From NCBI GenBank assembly GCA_902592935.1, contig CACJGD010000002.1, forward strand, positions 29,889 to 93,888: a stretch of 64,000 nt of DNA, given 5' to 3'. A program made the translations under genes and the position numbers. Of this stretch, positions 1,447-45,968 are shown in pieces. This stretch comes from an uncultured Pelagibacteraceae bacterium (lineage in GTDB: Bacteria; Pseudomonadota; Alphaproteobacteria; Pelagibacterales; Pelagibacteraceae). The notes under the pieces are model-generated. The model worked only from the letters and a program-made list of their open reading frames with translations. It searched no databases and was not told the DNA's origin. The first letter of the stretch is position 1; each line of letters opens with the position of its first letter.

Positions 1447-3546
1447 ATGAAAAAAAAAATTTTTTTATGTGATTTAACATACGATACTATAATTTTAGTT
1501 TCAGATACCATTCCAATTAATATTGGATTTATTGGGTCTTATCTTTTAAAACACCTAAAGGATGAAGTCGAAGTCGAATTATTTAAATATCCAAAAGATG
1601 CAATTGAAAAAATTAAAAAAGAAAAACCAGATGTTGTTGCTTTAAGCAATTATTCCTGGAATAGTAATCTATCTGATTTTGTCTCAAAAATTGCTTTGGA
1701 AGTTAATCCAAACTGTATCACAGTACAAGGTGGAACAAATTTCCCCCATGATAAAACTCAACAAGAATTATTTTTAAAACAAAAAAAATATGTAGATATT
1801 TATACTTTGCTAGAGGGTGAAAAATCTTTTTTAAATATAATTAAAAAATTAATTGATGTTAATGGGGATAAATCTAAAATGTTTGATAATCCTATTGATG
1901 GATGTGTATTTATTCATCCCAAGTCAAAAAAGTTTACATCAGGTAATTATTTAGAGAGAATTAATGATTTGGATGAAATTCCATCTCCATATTTAAATGG
2001 TATGCTTGATAAATTTTTTGATGGCATGCTAACACCATTTATAGAAACAAATAGGGGATGTCCTTTTACATGTTCTTTTTGCCATACTGGAAATGATTAT
2101 TTTCATAAACTTAAAAAATTTTCTGCAGATAGGGTTAGAGATGAAATAGAATATATTGGAAAAAAATGTCATAAACTTGGTATCACTAATTTGCATTTAG
2201 CTGATGTTAATTTTGGCATGTATCCTACAGATAAACTTACATGTGAGTACCTTTTGGAATCAAAAAACAAATATAGCTGGCCATTACAAATTATGGCTAC
2301 CACTGGAAAAAATAGTAAAAAAAGAGTGATGGAAATCACAAGTATTCTTGGAAATATGTTTTCAGTAAATATGTCGATGCAATCAATGGATCCTGTTGTT
2401 TTAAAAAATATTAAGCGTGAAAATATTAAAAATTCTCACATTATTGAAGTCAACCAGCATTTACGTGATCAAGGTAGATCAACAAAAGCAGAACTAATTG
2501 TTCCATTGCCAGGAGAATCTAAAGATACATTTGTTAATGGATTAAATACTGCTTTAGAGGCGGGTGCATCTACAGTAACTATTTATACATTAATGATGCT
2601 TCAAGGAACCGAGTTTAAGTTACCATCTTATAGAAAACAATTTGATTATATAACGAAGTTTAGAATAGTTCCTTTAAATTTTGGTGAATATGATAATGAA
2701 AGAATATTTGATTATGAGGAAGTTGGAGTTGGTACAAAAGACTTATCTTTTGACGACTATTTATACATTCGTTCCCTTGCGCTAATGGTGGAATCTTTGT
2801 TTAATGGAAAACCTTTTGATGAATTTTTTATGTATGCTAACCAAAATGGTATTAGACCAGGATATTTATTGAAGTATTTATTAGATAATATCGAAAAATC
2901 AGATAAACAAATAAGAGAATTATTCTCTGATTTTACTGAGGAGACAAGAACAGAATTATGGGATTCAGAAGAAAAGCTAGTAAGTCATTACAAAAAAGAT
3001 GAAAACTACAAACTTCTAAAAGAAGGAAAAGTTGGTGGAAATCTTATTTATAAATATAAGTCTAGAAGTGTAATAGCTGCTAAAAAAAATTGGATAGACT
3101 TTATTTCTAATCAGATACAAGATATTTTAACAAAAAGATCTGAGAAAAATAATTTTGTGGGTGAAATTAGAAACTTAAATGTATTTTGCAACCAAAAACT
3201 AAAAGGTATGTTGGATGTAGAGGCTAACACAAGTACCTCTCAAGATGAATTTCAATATGATGTTTTAAAATGGATACATGATGGTTATTCAAAAAAACTA
3301 TCTTTTTATAAATTAGCAAAACCTAAAAAATATGTATTTGAATATACTGAGGAGCAATTAAAAAATAGAGTCGATTTATTTAAAAGATACGGAACTGATA
3401 TAAATGCATTGTCTAAAATTATGACTAGAGTTTCAAATCTTGAGAGTCAATTCAGAAAAGTTAGAAATGAGGGAGAAGATACTTTGATCGATATTTATCC
3501 TCAAAAAATTGGTGATAGCTTTGTCAGGTATGCTATCGCAAATTAA
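1447..3546 (+). CDS. B12-binding-domain radical SAM protein
   Basis: N-terminal B12-binding-like Rossmann region (KPDVVALSNYSWN..VQGGTNFP), then radical SAM CPFTCSFC (CxxxCxxC) and GITNLHLADVNFGM; 699 aa. Confidence 0.85.
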   Translation: MKKKIFLCDLTYDTIILVSDTIPINIGFIGSYLLKHLKDEVEVELFKYPKDAIEKIKKEKPDVVALSNYSWNSNLSDFVSKIALEVNPNCITVQGGTNFPHDKTQQELFLKQKKYVDIYTLLEGEKSFLNIIKKLIDVNGDKSKMFDNPIDGCVFIHPKSKKFTSGNYLERINDLDEIPSPYLNGMLDKFFDGMLTPFIETNRGCPFTCSFCHTGNDYFHKLKKFSADRVRDEIEYIGKKCHKLGITNLHLADVNFGMYPTDKLTCEYLLESKNKYSWPLQIMATTGKNSKKRVMEITSILGNMFSVNMSMQSMDPVVLKNIKRENIKNSHIIEVNQHLRDQGRSTKAELIVPLPGESKDTFVNGLNTALEAGASTVTIYTLMMLQGTEFKLPSYRKQFDYITKFRIVPLNFGEYDNERIFDYEEVGVGTKDLSFDDYLYIRSLALMVESLFNGKPFDEFFMYANQNGIRPGYLLKYLLDNIEKSDKQIRELFSDFTEETRTELWDSEEKLVSHYKKDENYKLLKEGKVGGNLIYKYKSRSVIAAKKNWIDFISNQIQDILTKRSEKNNFVGEIRNLNVFCNQKLKGMLDVEANTSTSQDEFQYDVLKWIHDGYSKKLSFYKLAKPKKYVFEYTEEQLKNRVDLFKRYGTDINALSKIMTRVSNLESQFRKVRNEGEDTLIDIYPQKIGDSFVRYAIAN

Positions 3547-3585
3547 TTTATAGAAAAATTATAATTTTTTGATAAATTCTAATAA

Positions 3586-3750
3586 TACCGAATCTTGGTG
3601 GGGAATCAGTGCGTAATTCATTGGCTCTTCCTGGAACCGTAAAGTCGGAGTACCACCCGGTAAAGTCCACTGTTGAATGATGGCCAGGAAAAGTCTAATT
3701 CTACAATGAAAAATTAACAGAGGCATTAACTTAACGCCACGAAAGGGGCA
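3586..3750 (+). promoter_or_regulatory. Cobalamin-class riboswitch (RF00174 / AdoCbl-variant clan)
   Basis: GGGAAtCAGTGcgtAATTCattGGCTcttCCtGgAACCGTAAAGTCGGAGTACCACCC resembles the conserved cobalamin aptamer core including a B12-box-like AGTCgGAgtACC. Closing helices TACCG/CGGTA (3586-3590/3658-3662) and GGTGG/CCACC (3597-3601/3653-3657). Lies directly upstream of a BtuB-like TonB receptor. Confidence 0.82.
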
Positions 3751-3760
3751 AAATAGTGCT

Positions 3761-5629
3761 ATGTTAAAATTTCTTATTATCCTGACTATAAATACTTTAC
3801 TTATTAATATCTCATTTGCTGATAGTTTGAATGAACTTTATGATTGCTCTTGGGACAACAGGTCAAATACACCATGTTTAGAAATAAGCAAAAACTTATC
3901 AAATTCATCCAAATTTTCTAAAACGGGAATAAATAAAATTGTTATATCAAAAGAAGAAATAGACCGTAGTGGAGCTGTAGATGTTATTGATCTTCTTAAA
4001 AATATTCCAGATATCAATATTACGCAAAGTGGTCCAAAAGGACAGCAAGCCTCAATTTTTTCACGGGGAACAGGATCAAATCATACTATTGTAATGATAA
4101 ATGGTGTACCAATTAATGACCAATCAACTACCCAAGGATTACATGATTTTGGTGTAGATTTTATTCAAACTATTCATCAAATTGAGATTTATCCCGGTTC
4201 ATCAGCAACACATTTTGGAACCAATTCAATTGGTGGAGCAATAAATATAATTCTTACAGGAGATTTTAAAGATAATTTTAAAGTTAACACCGATAAGAAT
4301 GCAAATTACGAATTAGCATTAAACAAAAATTATATATACGATAATTCTTCCCTCAACATGAAATTTGGTAGTGTTAAAAATAAAACCATAAGCGCCAGAG
4401 GTAATAGTGATGATGAAAAAGATGGACTAGAAAATTATTCAGTAAATATAAATTATGAAAAATTTTTAAGAGATAACAATAGATTATACAATACAACGTA
4501 TATCAGACAAACGGTAGCTGCATACGATAATTCATCTACCAATCAAACTGGTTATGAAGGTGACAATAAGTTTGGTTCGTTTCAAATTGGATTAGAGAAA
4601 AAAGATAAAACAAAGAAAAAAAACTATATAATTTATTATAATATTTATGATAGGGAATATGATGAAAGAGGAACTATTGATACATATGAAAGTGAGGTCA
4701 TAGGTATAAAGTATGATTTTTCAAATATTTTAAATAATAGTTTTTCATATGGTTTAGGTTCGGAATATAAATATGATTGGGGTTATTTTGATAATAGAGG
4801 AAGTTATCAGGCATCAACAAAAGGTAATTCGAATAATTTTTCACTTTATGGAAATGCTGGGATCAATTTAGGAAATAATTTTACCTTTTCTCTGTTTACA
4901 AGATCAGATATTCATAAACAGACAGGGTTAAATTCAACTTATAAAGTTAATTTAGATAAAAGATTTGAAAATTTTAATTTTGGAACAGCATTTATGACTG
5001 GTTTACGAAACCCTACTTTATACGAAATGTTTGGAACCGATAATTTTGGATATTCAGGAAATAGAGATTTAAAACCAGAAAAAAGCAACACAGCAGAAAT
5101 ATATTCAAATATATCTGTAAACGAAAATTTAAATTTTAAGGCAAGAGCATTTAGATCGAATATTGAAAATAATATAGAGTATATAAATAATAAATATTCT
5201 AATGATAATGATGATGTAAATTTAAACCAATCTGGTATTAATTTTTTAATAGGTCTAAAAACTGATGATATTTCAGCAAATATATCATCCTCATTTTTAA
5301 GCACAAAAAAAGAAAATGGCTCTAGCCAAACAAGAAGACCAAAAAAGACACATAGTTTAAATCTTTATAAGACCTTAAATAATAAAATATTTGGTAATTA
5401 TAATATCAATTTATCTTATAAACATTATGGTAAGCATTATGACGTACATAGTTCTACATTTAATACTATTGAGATGGATAGTACCGATATATTAGATTTG
5501 ATCATTACAAAAAAAATAAATCAGACAAATTATTTCTTAAAAGTTAGCAATTTATTAGATGAAAGTTATCAAAGACCTCATGGTTATAATCAGGAAAACA
5601 GAATAATCAAATTTGGCTTTAAATACTAA
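3761..5629 (+). CDS. btuB: TonB-dependent receptor, BtuB-like (vitamin B12 uptake)
   Basis: Signal peptide; plug domain (VISKEEIDRSGAVDVIDLLKNIPDINITQSG...SIFSRGTGSNHTIVMINGVPINDQST...VEIYPGSSATHFGTNSIGGAINII-like); beta-barrel ending in GFKY; preceded by a cobalamin riboswitch. Confidence 0.88.
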   Translation: MLKFLIILTINTLLINISFADSLNELYDCSWDNRSNTPCLEISKNLSNSSKFSKTGINKIVISKEEIDRSGAVDVIDLLKNIPDINITQSGPKGQQASIFSRGTGSNHTIVMINGVPINDQSTTQGLHDFGVDFIQTIHQIEIYPGSSATHFGTNSIGGAINIILTGDFKDNFKVNTDKNANYELALNKNYIYDNSSLNMKFGSVKNKTISARGNSDDEKDGLENYSVNINYEKFLRDNNRLYNTTYIRQTVAAYDNSSTNQTGYEGDNKFGSFQIGLEKKDKTKKKNYIIYYNIYDREYDERGTIDTYESEVIGIKYDFSNILNNSFSYGLGSEYKYDWGYFDNRGSYQASTKGNSNNFSLYGNAGINLGNNFTFSLFTRSDIHKQTGLNSTYKVNLDKRFENFNFGTAFMTGLRNPTLYEMFGTDNFGYSGNRDLKPEKSNTAEIYSNISVNENLNFKARAFRSNIENNIEYINNKYSNDNDDVNLNQSGINFLIGLKTDDISANISSSFLSTKKENGSSQTRRPKKTHSLNLYKTLNNKIFGNYNINLSYKHYGKHYDVHSSTFNTIEMDSTDILDLIITKKINQTNYFLKVSNLLDESYQRPHGYNQENRIIKFGFKY

Positions 5630-5678: not shown

Positions 5679-6188
5679 ATGTATAGTTACATAAAAATAT
5701 CAATAGGAATTCTGGCATTACTATCTTTAACAAGATTTATTCCACATCCACCAAACTTTACTAGTTTAATTGCATTAAGCTTTTATGTTCCAATAATTTT
5801 TGGAATAAAATTTTTGCCAATTTTATTACTTAGTTTTGTTTTTACTGACTTATTTATTGGATTCCATACATTAACATTTTTTACTTGGGGTAGCATTTGT
5901 GTGATAGCACTAATTTCAAAATATTTTTCAAAAACTTTAATTTCAAGGTTTACAGGTGCAATCTCTGGGGCATTAATTTTTTTTATTATATCAAACCTAG
6001 GTGTGTGGTTAATGGGTTCCTATGGTTATACTTTAAATGGTTTCATAAAATGCTATATTCTAGCAATTCCATTTTTTGGAAATACTTTGGTTTCAACAAT
6101 AATTTATTCTTTTATTTTTGAAATTTTATACAAATATTCTAAAACAAATAATTTTAATAATTTTCTTATAAATTTATTTTCTAAATGA
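5679..6188 (+). CDS. Small integral membrane protein, DUF6580-like / ECF S-component-like; putative cobalamin-associated transport
   Basis: About 5-6 hydrophobic segments; LTRFIPHPPNFTSLIALSFYVPIIFG motif; immediately downstream of the riboswitch-led btuB. Confidence 0.65.
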   Translation: MYSYIKISIGILALLSLTRFIPHPPNFTSLIALSFYVPIIFGIKFLPILLLSFVFTDLFIGFHTLTFFTWGSICVIALISKYFSKTLISRFTGAISGALIFFIISNLGVWLMGSYGYTLNGFIKCYILAIPFFGNTLVSTIIYSFIFEILYKYSKTNNFNNFLINLFSK

Positions 6189-7666: not shown

Positions 7667-8953
7667 ATGAACTATTGTTCTAGATGTTTATATCCTTCGA
7701 ATCATCCCTATGGAATTATTTTTAATGAAAATAATTTGTGTTCTGGATGTATAATTCATGAAGAAAAAAATGTAATAGATTGGAAAAAAAAATTTAAAAT
7801 TTTAAAAAAATTAGTTTGGGAATATAAAAAAAGAAATAGTGGTCAAAATTTTGATTGTATTGTTCCTGTAACAGGAGGTTCAGATAGTTTTTTTATTCTT
7901 CATACCGTAAAAAAGGTTTTGGGTCTAAATCCATTATTAGTTAATTATAACTCGCATTTTAACACAAAAATTGGAATTAGAAATTTATCAAGATTAGTTA
8001 CTTCTTTTGATTGTGATATGGTTACTTCTACATTATCTCCTGATTTATTAAAAAAAATAACGAGACATACACTAAAAAAATATGGCACAATGTACTGGCA
8101 AGTTCTTTCTGGATTTACAACTTTTCCTGTTCAAACTGCTGTAAAGTATAAAATTCCGTTAATAATATGGGGTGTTCATGGCTGGTCGGAGCAAACAGGA
8201 ATGTTTTCACATCATGATCAAGCTGAAATGACACAAAGATGCAGAAGAGAACACGCTCTATTAGGCATAAAAGCTGAAGATTTAATTGATAAAAAATCAA
8301 AAATATCAAGACGTGATATCCAACCTTTTATTTACCCTTACGATAACGAGTTAGAAGCAGTTGGTGTAAGAGGGTTATATTTAAGTAATTTCATAAGATG
8401 GGACTCGAAAAAGCAACATGAAAAAATGATTAAGATTTATCATTATGAAACTGAGGAACAACAAAGAACATTTAATACTTATGAAGACGTACATTGTATG
8501 CATTCTGCTGGGATTCATGATTATATTAAATTTCTTAAATTAGGTTATTCAAAAGTTCATGACCACGCAACACGAGAAATAAGACTTCAAAGAATGACTA
8601 GATCGGAGGGGATCAGAATGGTTAAAAAGTATATGTATAAAAAGCCAAAAGATATTAATATTTTTTCAGAATGGATAGAATTACCAGAAAAAAAAATTTT
8701 TGATCAAATAAATAAATTCAGAGACAAAAAAATTTGGCGGTATCAAAATAATAAGTGGAAACTTTTAGATTGTGTTTCTAAACATAAGGAAAACAAGTTT
8801 AATGCAAAAGTTAAATTGAGAATCAAAGAAGATTGTAAATTTATTCAAACAAAATTAAATGAAGAAAAAACATTTAATGAAAAAAACTATACATTAATGG
8901 GAAGAAGTTATTACGATAAAAATAATTATGGAGCTGTTAAAGATAAACCCTAA
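7667..8953 (+). CDS. N-acetyl sugar amidotransferase (PseA/WbpG family), copy 1
   Basis: N-terminal CSRCLYP..CSGC zinc-like motif; PP-loop PVTGGSDSFF; follows hisH/hisF. Confidence 0.85.
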   Translation: MNYCSRCLYPSNHPYGIIFNENNLCSGCIIHEEKNVIDWKKKFKILKKLVWEYKKRNSGQNFDCIVPVTGGSDSFFILHTVKKVLGLNPLLVNYNSHFNTKIGIRNLSRLVTSFDCDMVTSTLSPDLLKKITRHTLKKYGTMYWQVLSGFTTFPVQTAVKYKIPLIIWGVHGWSEQTGMFSHHDQAEMTQRCRREHALLGIKAEDLIDKKSKISRRDIQPFIYPYDNELEAVGVRGLYLSNFIRWDSKKQHEKMIKIYHYETEEQQRTFNTYEDVHCMHSAGIHDYIKFLKLGYSKVHDHATREIRLQRMTRSEGIRMVKKYMYKKPKDINIFSEWIELPEKKIFDQINKFRDKKIWRYQNNKWKLLDCVSKHKENKFNAKVKLRIKEDCKFIQTKLNEEKTFNEKNYTLMGRSYYDKNNYGAVKDKP

Positions 8954-8961
8954 ATAAAATT

Positions 8962-10074
8962 ATGAATTATTGTAAAAAATGTGTAATGCCTGATACAAAA
9001 CCAGGTTTAAAATTTGATACGTCAGGAGTTTGTTTTGCATGCATAAATGCAGAGAAAAAAACTAAAATAAATTGGCAAAAAAGGAATAAGCTTCTTCATA
9101 AAATATGCAATGAAATAAGAGGCAAAAATAAAAATGGCTATGATTGTGTTGTACCAGTTAGTGGCGGAAAAGATAGTATGTATCAGACTTATATGATGAG
9201 TAAAATTTATAATTTAAAAGTACTTGCTGTCAGTGTTCCACAACATTGTCAAACTGAGGAAGGCATTGAAAATTTAAATTCACTGGTCACAAATTTAAAT
9301 GTAGATTTAATTAAGGTAACTATAAGACACAAAACCCATAAAAAATTAAGACTTATAGGCTTGAAAGAAATGGGAAACCCAAGTTATTCAGAGCATAAAT
9401 CAGTTTTTGCTGGTGTAACAAGAGTAGCTTTAAATTTTAAAGTTCCATTAGTAGTTTGGGGGGAAGATATAGGAGTTGAATTTGGAGGTAATGTTGATAA
9501 AAAATCTTCTAAAGAAGGTTTAGCAGATGACCTTATAAATAACGATTTGTTTGCTGATGTTTCTTTTTCGGAGTTTGTTAAAAATAGAATTCCTAAAAAT
9601 GAATTATATTTTTATAATCATCCAGATATAAAAGAATTTAAAAATCATAAAGTAAAAACTATATATCTAAGTCATTTTCATAATTGGGATGGTTACAAAA
9701 ATTTTAAACTCGCCATGAAATTTGGATTTACTGGAAGAAAAAAGGGTCCTTTATCAGGAAATATTTTAAACTATGACAATATAGATGAAAAATTATGTGA
9801 AATGCACATATGGATTAAGATGCTTAAGTATGGCTTTTGGAGACCAACAGACCAATCTTGTTACCATATATGGAATAGAAGAATGACTAGAGAGGAAGGA
9901 GTAGAAAATGTTTTGAAAAAACAATATGAATTTCCTTATGAGTATCTTAAAGATTTTTTAGACTACCACTCATTAAAAGAGGGAGAATTTATGGATGAAT
10001 TAGAGAATTGGAGAAATAAAGATATTTGGGTAAAAAAAAATAGAAAATGGAGATTAAAAAACGAAATTTCGTAA
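8962..10074 (+). CDS. N-acetyl sugar amidotransferase (PseA/WbpG family), copy 2
   Basis: MNYCKKCVMPDTKPGLKFD..GVCFAC; PP-loop VPVSGGKDSMYQ; paralogous to the preceding gene. Confidence 0.9.
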   Translation: MNYCKKCVMPDTKPGLKFDTSGVCFACINAEKKTKINWQKRNKLLHKICNEIRGKNKNGYDCVVPVSGGKDSMYQTYMMSKIYNLKVLAVSVPQHCQTEEGIENLNSLVTNLNVDLIKVTIRHKTHKKLRLIGLKEMGNPSYSEHKSVFAGVTRVALNFKVPLVVWGEDIGVEFGGNVDKKSSKEGLADDLINNDLFADVSFSEFVKNRIPKNELYFYNHPDIKEFKNHKVKTIYLSHFHNWDGYKNFKLAMKFGFTGRKKGPLSGNILNYDNIDEKLCEMHIWIKMLKYGFWRPTDQSCYHIWNRRMTREEGVENVLKKQYEFPYEYLKDFLDYHSLKEGEFMDELENWRNKDIWVKKNRKWRLKNEIS

Positions 10075-45597: not shown

Positions 45598-45717
45598 TGC
45601 CAGCCGGTGGTTATAGCGAAAGGGTTATACCCGATCCCATTCCGAACTCGGAAGTCAAGCCTTTCTGCGCCGATGGTACTTTGTCTTAAGATACGGGAGA
45701 GTAGGTCATTGCCGGCA
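45598..45717 (+). rRNA. rrf: 5S ribosomal RNA
   Basis: TGCCAGCCGGTGGTTATAGCGAAAGGGTTATACCCGATCCCATTCCGAACTCGGAAGTCAAGCC...GATGGTACTTTGTCTTAAGATACGGGAGAGTAGGTCATTGCCGGCA; conserved 5S motifs and a terminal helix. Confidence 0.96.
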
Positions 45718-45852: not shown

Positions 45853-45857
45853 ATTTT

Positions 45858-45968
45858 ATGGATAATGAAAACCATAAAAATACATGGAATAATTTTACCA
45901 AGTTTGTTCTGTGGGGAACTGTCGCTGTCATAGTAGTTTTAGTTTTAATGGCATTATTCTTATTATAG
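45858..45968 (+). CDS. aa3-type cytochrome c oxidase subunit IV-like small protein (absent from ORF track)
   Basis: MDNENHKNTWNNFTKFVLWGTVAVIVVLVLMALFLL*; 36 aa, single TM, directly upstream of pntA. Confidence 0.75.
   Translation: MDNENHKNTWNNFTKFVLWGTVAVIVVLVLMALFLL

Follow-up and report, generated by a model that had tools for sequence, protein, structure and literature searches.

The DNA analysed here, called the window throughout, is a 64,000-nucleotide stretch from an uncultured Pelagibacteraceae genome of 935 kb that is 75% complete. From position 1 to 45.6 kb the window is low in GC (20-29%); this part ends at the 5S gene at 45603, and genes of glycan type are annotated within the first 15 kb of the window. 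In HTCC1062, HVR2 is a 48-kb region between the 23S and 5S genes (PMC2217521). The low-GC stretch matches an HVR2-like, rRNA-flanked hypervariable surface-polysaccharide island. RF01810 (pntA sRNA) is matched at 45854-45915 (77.2 bits), just past the 5S gene, where the variable island ends.

The gene order in the island is NeuB-like gene, B12-binding/radical-SAM gene, riboswitch, TonB receptor gene and DUF6580 gene; HisH/HisF-like, epimerase, DegT, WbqC and PIG-L genes follow. Beside the HisH/HisF-like genes, 7667-8953 and 8962-10074 are neighbouring genes for two related proteins that have cysteine motifs near the N-terminus (CSRC.../CKKC...) and match no Pfam family; they resemble N-acetyl sugar amidotransferases of acetamidino-sugar pathways. 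The features of the locus are as follows.

1447..3546, + strand: B12-binding/radical-SAM protein, 699 aa, candidate TokK/CysS-like cobalamin-dependent methyltransferase
3585..3663, + strand: aptamer core of an AdoCbl-II (class II cobalamin) riboswitch, from an RF01689 match and covariation in 98 leaders
3586-3590/3658-3662, 3597-3601/3653-3657 and 3607-3611/3619-3623, + strand: core helices P1, P3 and P4
3626-3628/3633-3635 and 3637-3639/3646-3648, + strand: core helices P5 and P6
3629..3632, + strand: L5 loop UCCU, 5' half of the kissing loop, with compensatory UCUC/GAGA in locus L075
3665..3724, + strand: conserved 3' domain outside the RF01689 model, conserved in 98 leaders
3665 and 3667-3672 with 3718-3724, + strand: outer helix Pa
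3685..3692, + strand: L13 loop CAGGAAAA on stem P13 (3681-3684/3693-3696); AGGA at 3686-3689 pairs with L5
3697-3700/3712-3715, + strand: hairpin Pb, or alternatively a GGAA/UUCU pairing at 3687-3690/3699-3702
3714..3767, + strand: predicted start-codon-sequestering helix Pseq (3714-3719/3762-3767 and 3722-3728/3754-3760)
3741..3748, + strand: Shine-Dalgarno-like sequence GAAAGGGG, 12 nt upstream of the ATG
3761..5629, + strand: BtuB-like TonB-dependent receptor, 622 aa, with a signal-peptide-like N-terminus and Pfam Plug and barrel domains
5679..6188, + strand: DUF6580 membrane protein, 169 aa, candidate inner-membrane cobalamin transporter (PF20221, 96.1 bits)

The aptamer core begins 38 bp after the radical-SAM gene. 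When the whole window was scanned with all Rfam models (cmscan), four matches were found, among them RF01689 (AdoCbl-II) at 3585-3663 on the + strand, with 83.9 bits, an E-value of 1.3e-19 and coverage of model positions 1-81 of 81; the gathering score is 36.5 bits. The 79-nt core fits RF01689 end to end with no insertion and has no long peripheral extension of the class I (RF00174) type, although clan filtering in the scan would hide a weaker class I score. A first-pass annotation made from the sequence had proposed a cobalamin riboswitch closed by two helices, TACCG/CGGTA (3586-3590/3658-3662) and GGTGG/CCACC (3597-3601/3653-3657), and had suggested a covariance-model search; both helices are present, as P1 and P3, and the search returned a score well above the gathering score.

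The claim is also borne out by covariation. In an alignment of 98 distinct homologous leaders, 94.5% of the paired cells are pairable and 18 pairs show changes on both sides. Doubly changed cells number 181; shuffles give 54.7 +/- 5.4 and slid controls 5-27. P1, P3, P4, P5 and P6 are all backed by many compensatory changes: C-G and G-C occur 58:40 in P6, G-C and C-G 84:14 in P5, and pairs of P1 have up to 25 doubly changed cells each. The plain minimum free energy (MFE) fold of the leader is no better than that of shuffles (z -0.98), as expected of a pseudoknotted, ligand-dependent RNA; the evidence for a riboswitch therefore rests on covariation and not on folding energy. Its identity is near certain. 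The class is already known, and the leader is a well-supported further member of it.

TTCCTGG at 3628-3634 and CCAGGAA at 3684-3690 had been singled out as perfectly complementary, and CCAGGAA as a candidate for a tertiary contact linked to the expression platform. The tertiary role is supported: CCAGGAA supplies the L13 side of the canonical L5-L13 kissing loop. The seven-nucleotide match is present in the window; the conserved contact is the four-nucleotide UCCU/AGGA kissing loop, and the longer match arises in part from a G-C to C-G swap in P5 that is found in 14 of the 98 leaders. Kissing pairs 2-4 are intact in all 98, and the first pair is broken in 36. In L075 the loops read UCUC/GAGA, so that two of the four pairs are replaced by compensatory changes. 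An extended UUCCUGG/CCAGGAA helix was rejected as the main structure: its covariation score is 0.052 compared with 0.048 in shuffles (59 of 500 as high), and its outer pair (columns 53-125) is broken in 84 of 98 leaders. It is a possible alternative for the ligand-free state.

The first-pass annotation did not include the 3' domain, the pairing at the start codon, the gene for DUF6580 or the B12-binding radical-SAM enzymes encoded next to the cassette. The 3' domain is about 60 nt long and has the consensus AGUCCnnUGUUGAAUGAnGGCCAGGAAAAGUCUARUUCU..AAUUARCAnnGGC in the 98 leaders. When 264 Gb of genomes were scanned with a pattern for this domain, 82 loci matched; all of the 80 listed belong to Pelagibacteraceae/Pelagibacterales. 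For the Pelagibacteraceae lineage, RF01689 appears to leave out a conserved 3' domain that looks functional. Most pairs of Pa, P13 and Pb are invariant or vary on one side only, and the support for these helices is consequently one of conservation more than covariation. The Pa pair in columns 110-167 does vary (G-C, G-U, U-A), and the divergent L078 has an 8-bp P13, AAUUGUAG/CUACAAUU, as read off the alignment. RNAalifold favours an extended Pa with the GGAA/UUCU pairing, which is possibly the ligand-free form.

A three-codon frame, ATG AAA AAT TAA, lies at 3706-3717 within the conserved 3' domain. Short frames of this kind occur in many leaders (often ATGAAAAATTAG, sometimes ATGTAA) and are absent in others; this is possibly due to chance.

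The 3' strand of Pa in the window can also pair with UAGUGCU-A-UGUUAA, which spans the receptor start codon, so that the GGC strand is common to Pa and Pseq. The start codon of each leader was taken as the first ATG in frame that lies 14 nt or more downstream and has a Shine-Dalgarno-like motif; pairing played no part in the choice. Across 86 distinct leaders, the duplex between the Pa strand and the leader's own start region (-16..+8) has a mean energy of -9.15 kcal/mol, against -7.49 kcal/mol (sd 0.20) for permuted start regions (z = -8.3; 0 of 2000 permutations as low). Control regions at -40..-16, +8..+32, +32..+56 and +60..+84 are flat (z +1.8, -1.4, +1.1 and +0.5), and shared ancestry is therefore an unlikely cause. 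Coevolution of the 3' strand with the start region points to sequestration of the start codon.

Folding calculations fit a co-transcriptional exchange of this strand. In transcripts ending before the start region, Pa has a mean probability of 0.75 (98 sequences); once the start region is present the GGC strand moves there (0.66 vs 0.14, 47 leaders). With the core enforced, Pa and P13 can coexist in the shorter transcript, while the full-length window gives an MFE of -39.2 kcal/mol for P13 with Pseq compared with -30.5 kcal/mol for core, P13 and Pa.

The first-pass annotation had placed the riboswitch ahead of a TonB receptor, and the next gene indeed encodes a protein with Plug and beta-barrel domains above the Pfam cut-offs (68.5 and 49.9 bits). 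In the PDB, the best match to the family profile is E. coli BtuB, nearly full length (E 2e-64; next kind 1e-41). For the single sequence, TIGR01779 (TonB-B12) is the best model at 154.8 bits; this is below the equivalog cut-off of 599.7, and the receptor is for this reason named BtuB-like only. Two receptor types, found at 27 and 18 loci, are 24% identical, and both occur with this riboswitch and DUF6580. The DUF6580 proteins are as similar between receptor types (51.0% identity) as within them (50.8%), which suggests that receptors have been exchanged. In L171, L172 and L174 a receptor of the same family lies close behind the upstream gene with no riboswitch; in L171 its start is about 100 bp or less from the end of that gene, apparently a radical-SAM gene.

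DUF6580 is present in 44 of 48 riboswitch-positive and 8 of approximately 296 riboswitch-negative Pelagibacteraceae genomes. The four positive genomes in which it is missing have N-masked sequence or a contig end at this point. Among the eight negative genomes that carry it, L175 has a contig end that interrupts the riboswitch, and L171, L172 and L174 have the receptor but no riboswitch. Giant ORFs in L056, L061 and L066 were rejected as fusions; they are due to N runs in the public assemblies, in which the DUF6580 gene is hidden. In L178 (G111:C1:98115-98570) a second DUF6580 gene lies near the second B12-binding-domain match of the same genome, and no receptor homologue was found in the 12-kb stretch around it.

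The AlphaFold2 model of DUF6580 (pLDDT 90) has six long membrane-type helices, and R19, H23, D57, N106 and W110 are invariant. Its sequence has no match in the PDB. Foldseek gives weak fold matches (E 0.4-4, all above 0.1) to CbiM (probability 0.94) and to the S-component in 4hzu (TM 0.58-0.60); DUF6580 is a candidate for the inner-membrane transporter. BtuCDF was rejected as the inner-membrane route, as FecCD/BtuC-type permease matches are weak (22-30 bits) and mostly 267-276 aa long, a ZnuB-like size. ExbD is present in nearly all genomes tested.

The upstream 699-aa protein has a PF04055 (radical-SAM) domain above cut-off; its PF02310 (B12-binding) score of 29.1 is just below the cut-off of 32.1. 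Its profile matches TokK (E 1e-87) and CysS (2e-74) in the PDB, and its fold matches TokK (E 2e-35, TM 0.74-0.78) over both the cobalamin-binding Rossmann and radical-SAM domains. The CxxxCxxC motif is invariant. A homologue is immediately adjacent to the cassette in 27 of 48 loci.

Of 398 Pelagibacterales genomes sampled, 48 score above cut-off for RF01689, all in the window's own family (48 of approximately 344 Pelagibacteraceae), and at these loci the receptor and then DUF6580 follow the riboswitch; HIMB114 is an isolate that has the cassette. This distribution agrees with the earlier description of the receptor as accessory, as does the reported lack of TonB-dependent transporters in HTCC1062 and HTCC1002 (PMC3400609). 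The cassette is close to the rRNA operon in eight other loci. It had also been called mobile, which is supported in part. Its patchy distribution, its variable flanks and the swapped receptors are compatible with recombination within an rRNA-flanked hypervariable island; however, no mobility gene was recognised in the cassette or among the annotated genes around it in the window, flank genes at other loci having been clustered and being mostly without annotation.

Weak RF01689 matches in a sister family (25-36 bits) were rejected as class II; all four examined by cmscan are class I riboswitches (RF00174, 109-122 bits), and the other six sequences fetched resemble them. Two families thus have different riboswitch classes ahead of what looks like one cassette.

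Strong PF02310 hits were defined by an E-value of at most 1e-7; they are domain-level, with the radical-SAM nature checked for part of them. Such hits occur in 41 of 48 riboswitch-positive and 20 of approximately 296 riboswitch-negative Pelagibacteraceae genomes (P 1e-30), a contrast that incomplete assembly of the island could inflate; this does not apply to gene slots, where radical-SAM homologues fill 27 of 94 adjacent slots and 14 of 543 other flank slots (P 7e-15). Among genomes at least 90% complete, the hits are found in 9 of 12 with the cassette and 9 of approximately 127 others (P 2e-7).

Other cobalamin enzymes were sought in the same family. Neither MetH (activation domain) nor QueG was found in 70 genomes, and PduO adenosyltransferase was not found in 56; ribonucleotide reductases fall well short of the NrdJ cut-off, and 25 of 28 genomes tested have NrdB. 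Two sister-family genomes are also without MetH; the sister-family genomes tested carry NrdJ, QueG and PduO. Given the co-occurrence of B12-binding domains and the failure to detect MetH, NrdJ, QueG and PduO, the cassette most likely feeds the radical-SAM enzymes. With no adenosyltransferase of the PduO type found, AdoCbl may not be made; methyl- or hydroxocobalamin is then the more likely ligand. The Rfam name AdoCbl-II does not fix the ligand, which we infer is probably one of these two.

The most probable reading is that the class II switch controls translation of the BtuB-like receptor and DUF6580, and that these scavenge cobalamin for the adjacent cobalamin-dependent radical-SAM enzymes of HVR2; the latter may methylate a glycan or another small molecule. 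The switch mechanism and the purpose of the cassette are strong hypotheses drawn from sequence; they build on the computed aptamer, covarying core, kissing loop, 3' domain, start-codon coevolution, gene order and genomic association. Without cobalamin, the 3' domain would fold on itself (Pa) and hide its ..CAnnGGC.. strand, so that the start codon of the receptor stays accessible (ON). In the presence of cobalamin, the core would fold, L5 would kiss L13, P13 would be stabilised and Pa would open; the freed GGC strand would pair with the start codon (Pseq) and translation would stop (OFF). How the kissing loop would open Pa is a guess from geometry. In the published env8 and btuB riboswitches, P13 is stabilised by this loop-loop contact, which also favours formation of a ribosome-binding-site (RBS) hairpin (PMC10653944); by analogy, the ligand would favour Pseq. 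The ON state would require kinetic, co-transcriptional control, as Pseq is favoured in the full-length RNA even without ligand.

Sequence is compatible with either sign of regulation, and repression is the sign we infer. Cobalamin could instead activate by stabilising Pa and P13 and freeing the start codon. An activating corrinoid riboswitch has been published (PMC10653944), and the coexistence of Pa and P13 in the shorter core-enforced transcript would suit this. Activation is nevertheless improbable: cobalamin normally represses uptake genes, the kissing loops of env8 and btuB act in favour of the RBS hairpin, and the core-enforced full-length window folds with its start codon paired. Still less probable is a receptor for other cargo, such as a siderophore or heme, under a borrowed riboswitch leader. 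The sub-equivalog TIGR01779 score and the low identity between receptor types would allow this; against it stand the nearly full-length BtuB match, far ahead of the next kind, and the presence of cobalamin riboswitches of class II in Pelagibacteraceae and class I in the sister family before the same DUF6580 at a similar distance.

An alternative that is unlikely, yet deserves some weight, accepts the riboswitch but assigns the cassette to another cobalamin use (e.g. an unrecognised core B12 enzyme); B12-binding radical-SAM genes would be common in polysaccharide islands and their proximity coincidental. In keeping with this, 21 of 48 loci are without an immediately adjacent radical-SAM homologue, and 14 riboswitch-negative genomes have a strong B12-binding hit with no detected cassette; 7 genomes have the cassette without a strong hit. 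However, the co-occurrence is strong also in genomes at least 90% complete, and the positional enrichment is seen inside the island itself. Moreover, the core enzymes sought in the Pelagibacteraceae tested were not found or, for NrdJ, fell below cut-off, whereas the class I relatives have NrdJ, QueG and PduO. Supply of the radical-SAM enzymes remains the preferred reading.

SAR11 is among the most abundant bacteria of the sea and has been called a B12 auxotroph. The locus offers it candidates for three roles, namely a regulator, a two-protein import route and a consumer of B12, and suggests how and why supposedly B12-free SAR11 cells take up vitamin B12. SAR11 is reported to lack MetE, MetH and MtgBCDE (PMC12478193), and B12 regulation of its btuB has been explicitly stated to be unknown (PMC9296465). 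A wider reading, on which we are evenly divided, is that an exchangeable cassette sensing methyl- or hydroxocobalamin solely supplies glycan-modifying TokK-like radical-SAM enzymes through a new strand-exchange platform, B12 thereby tuning a hypervariable surface trait. From the locus one can predict which SAR11 genomes would respond to B12, with the effect expected in surface chemistry and not in methionine. As far as found in open-licence papers, there is no earlier description of the expression platform, of the gene context or of the proposed B12 consumer.

Compared with known systems, the leader resembles class II riboswitches such as env8HyCbl in its full-length RF01689 match, its P1-P3-P4-P5-P6 core and its L5-L13 kissing loop; the source is marine in both cases, the motif being so listed in PMC2864571. 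It differs in the added lineage-specific Pa/P13/Pb domain of about 60 nt, followed usually some 20-60 nt on by the predicted start-codon-sequestering helix. In env8 the RBS hairpin is coupled directly to P13. In the sister family, the class I riboswitch (RF00174) also precedes a DUF6580-bearing cassette, with the DUF6580 gene about 2.5 kb downstream (L079-L088).

The receptor shares with E. coli BtuB the Plug and barrel, the best PDB match and an upstream riboswitch; it differs in its sub-equivalog score and in having two divergent types behind a single kind of riboswitch. The radical-SAM protein is like the TokK/CysS/KedN5 family in fold, domain order, CxxxCxxC and best sequence and structure matches. 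Its identity to TokK is 22-23% in the fold alignment and it scores below the NF033712 cut-off; another difference is its location in a polysaccharide island of SAR11. BtuM, a solitary ECF-type cobalamin transporter, is encoded beside BtuB in bacteria without BtuCDF (PMC6072759). DUF6580 is similarly a small membrane protein beside a BtuB-like receptor; it belongs to another family, and its listed fold matches, all weak, are CbiM and other S-components.
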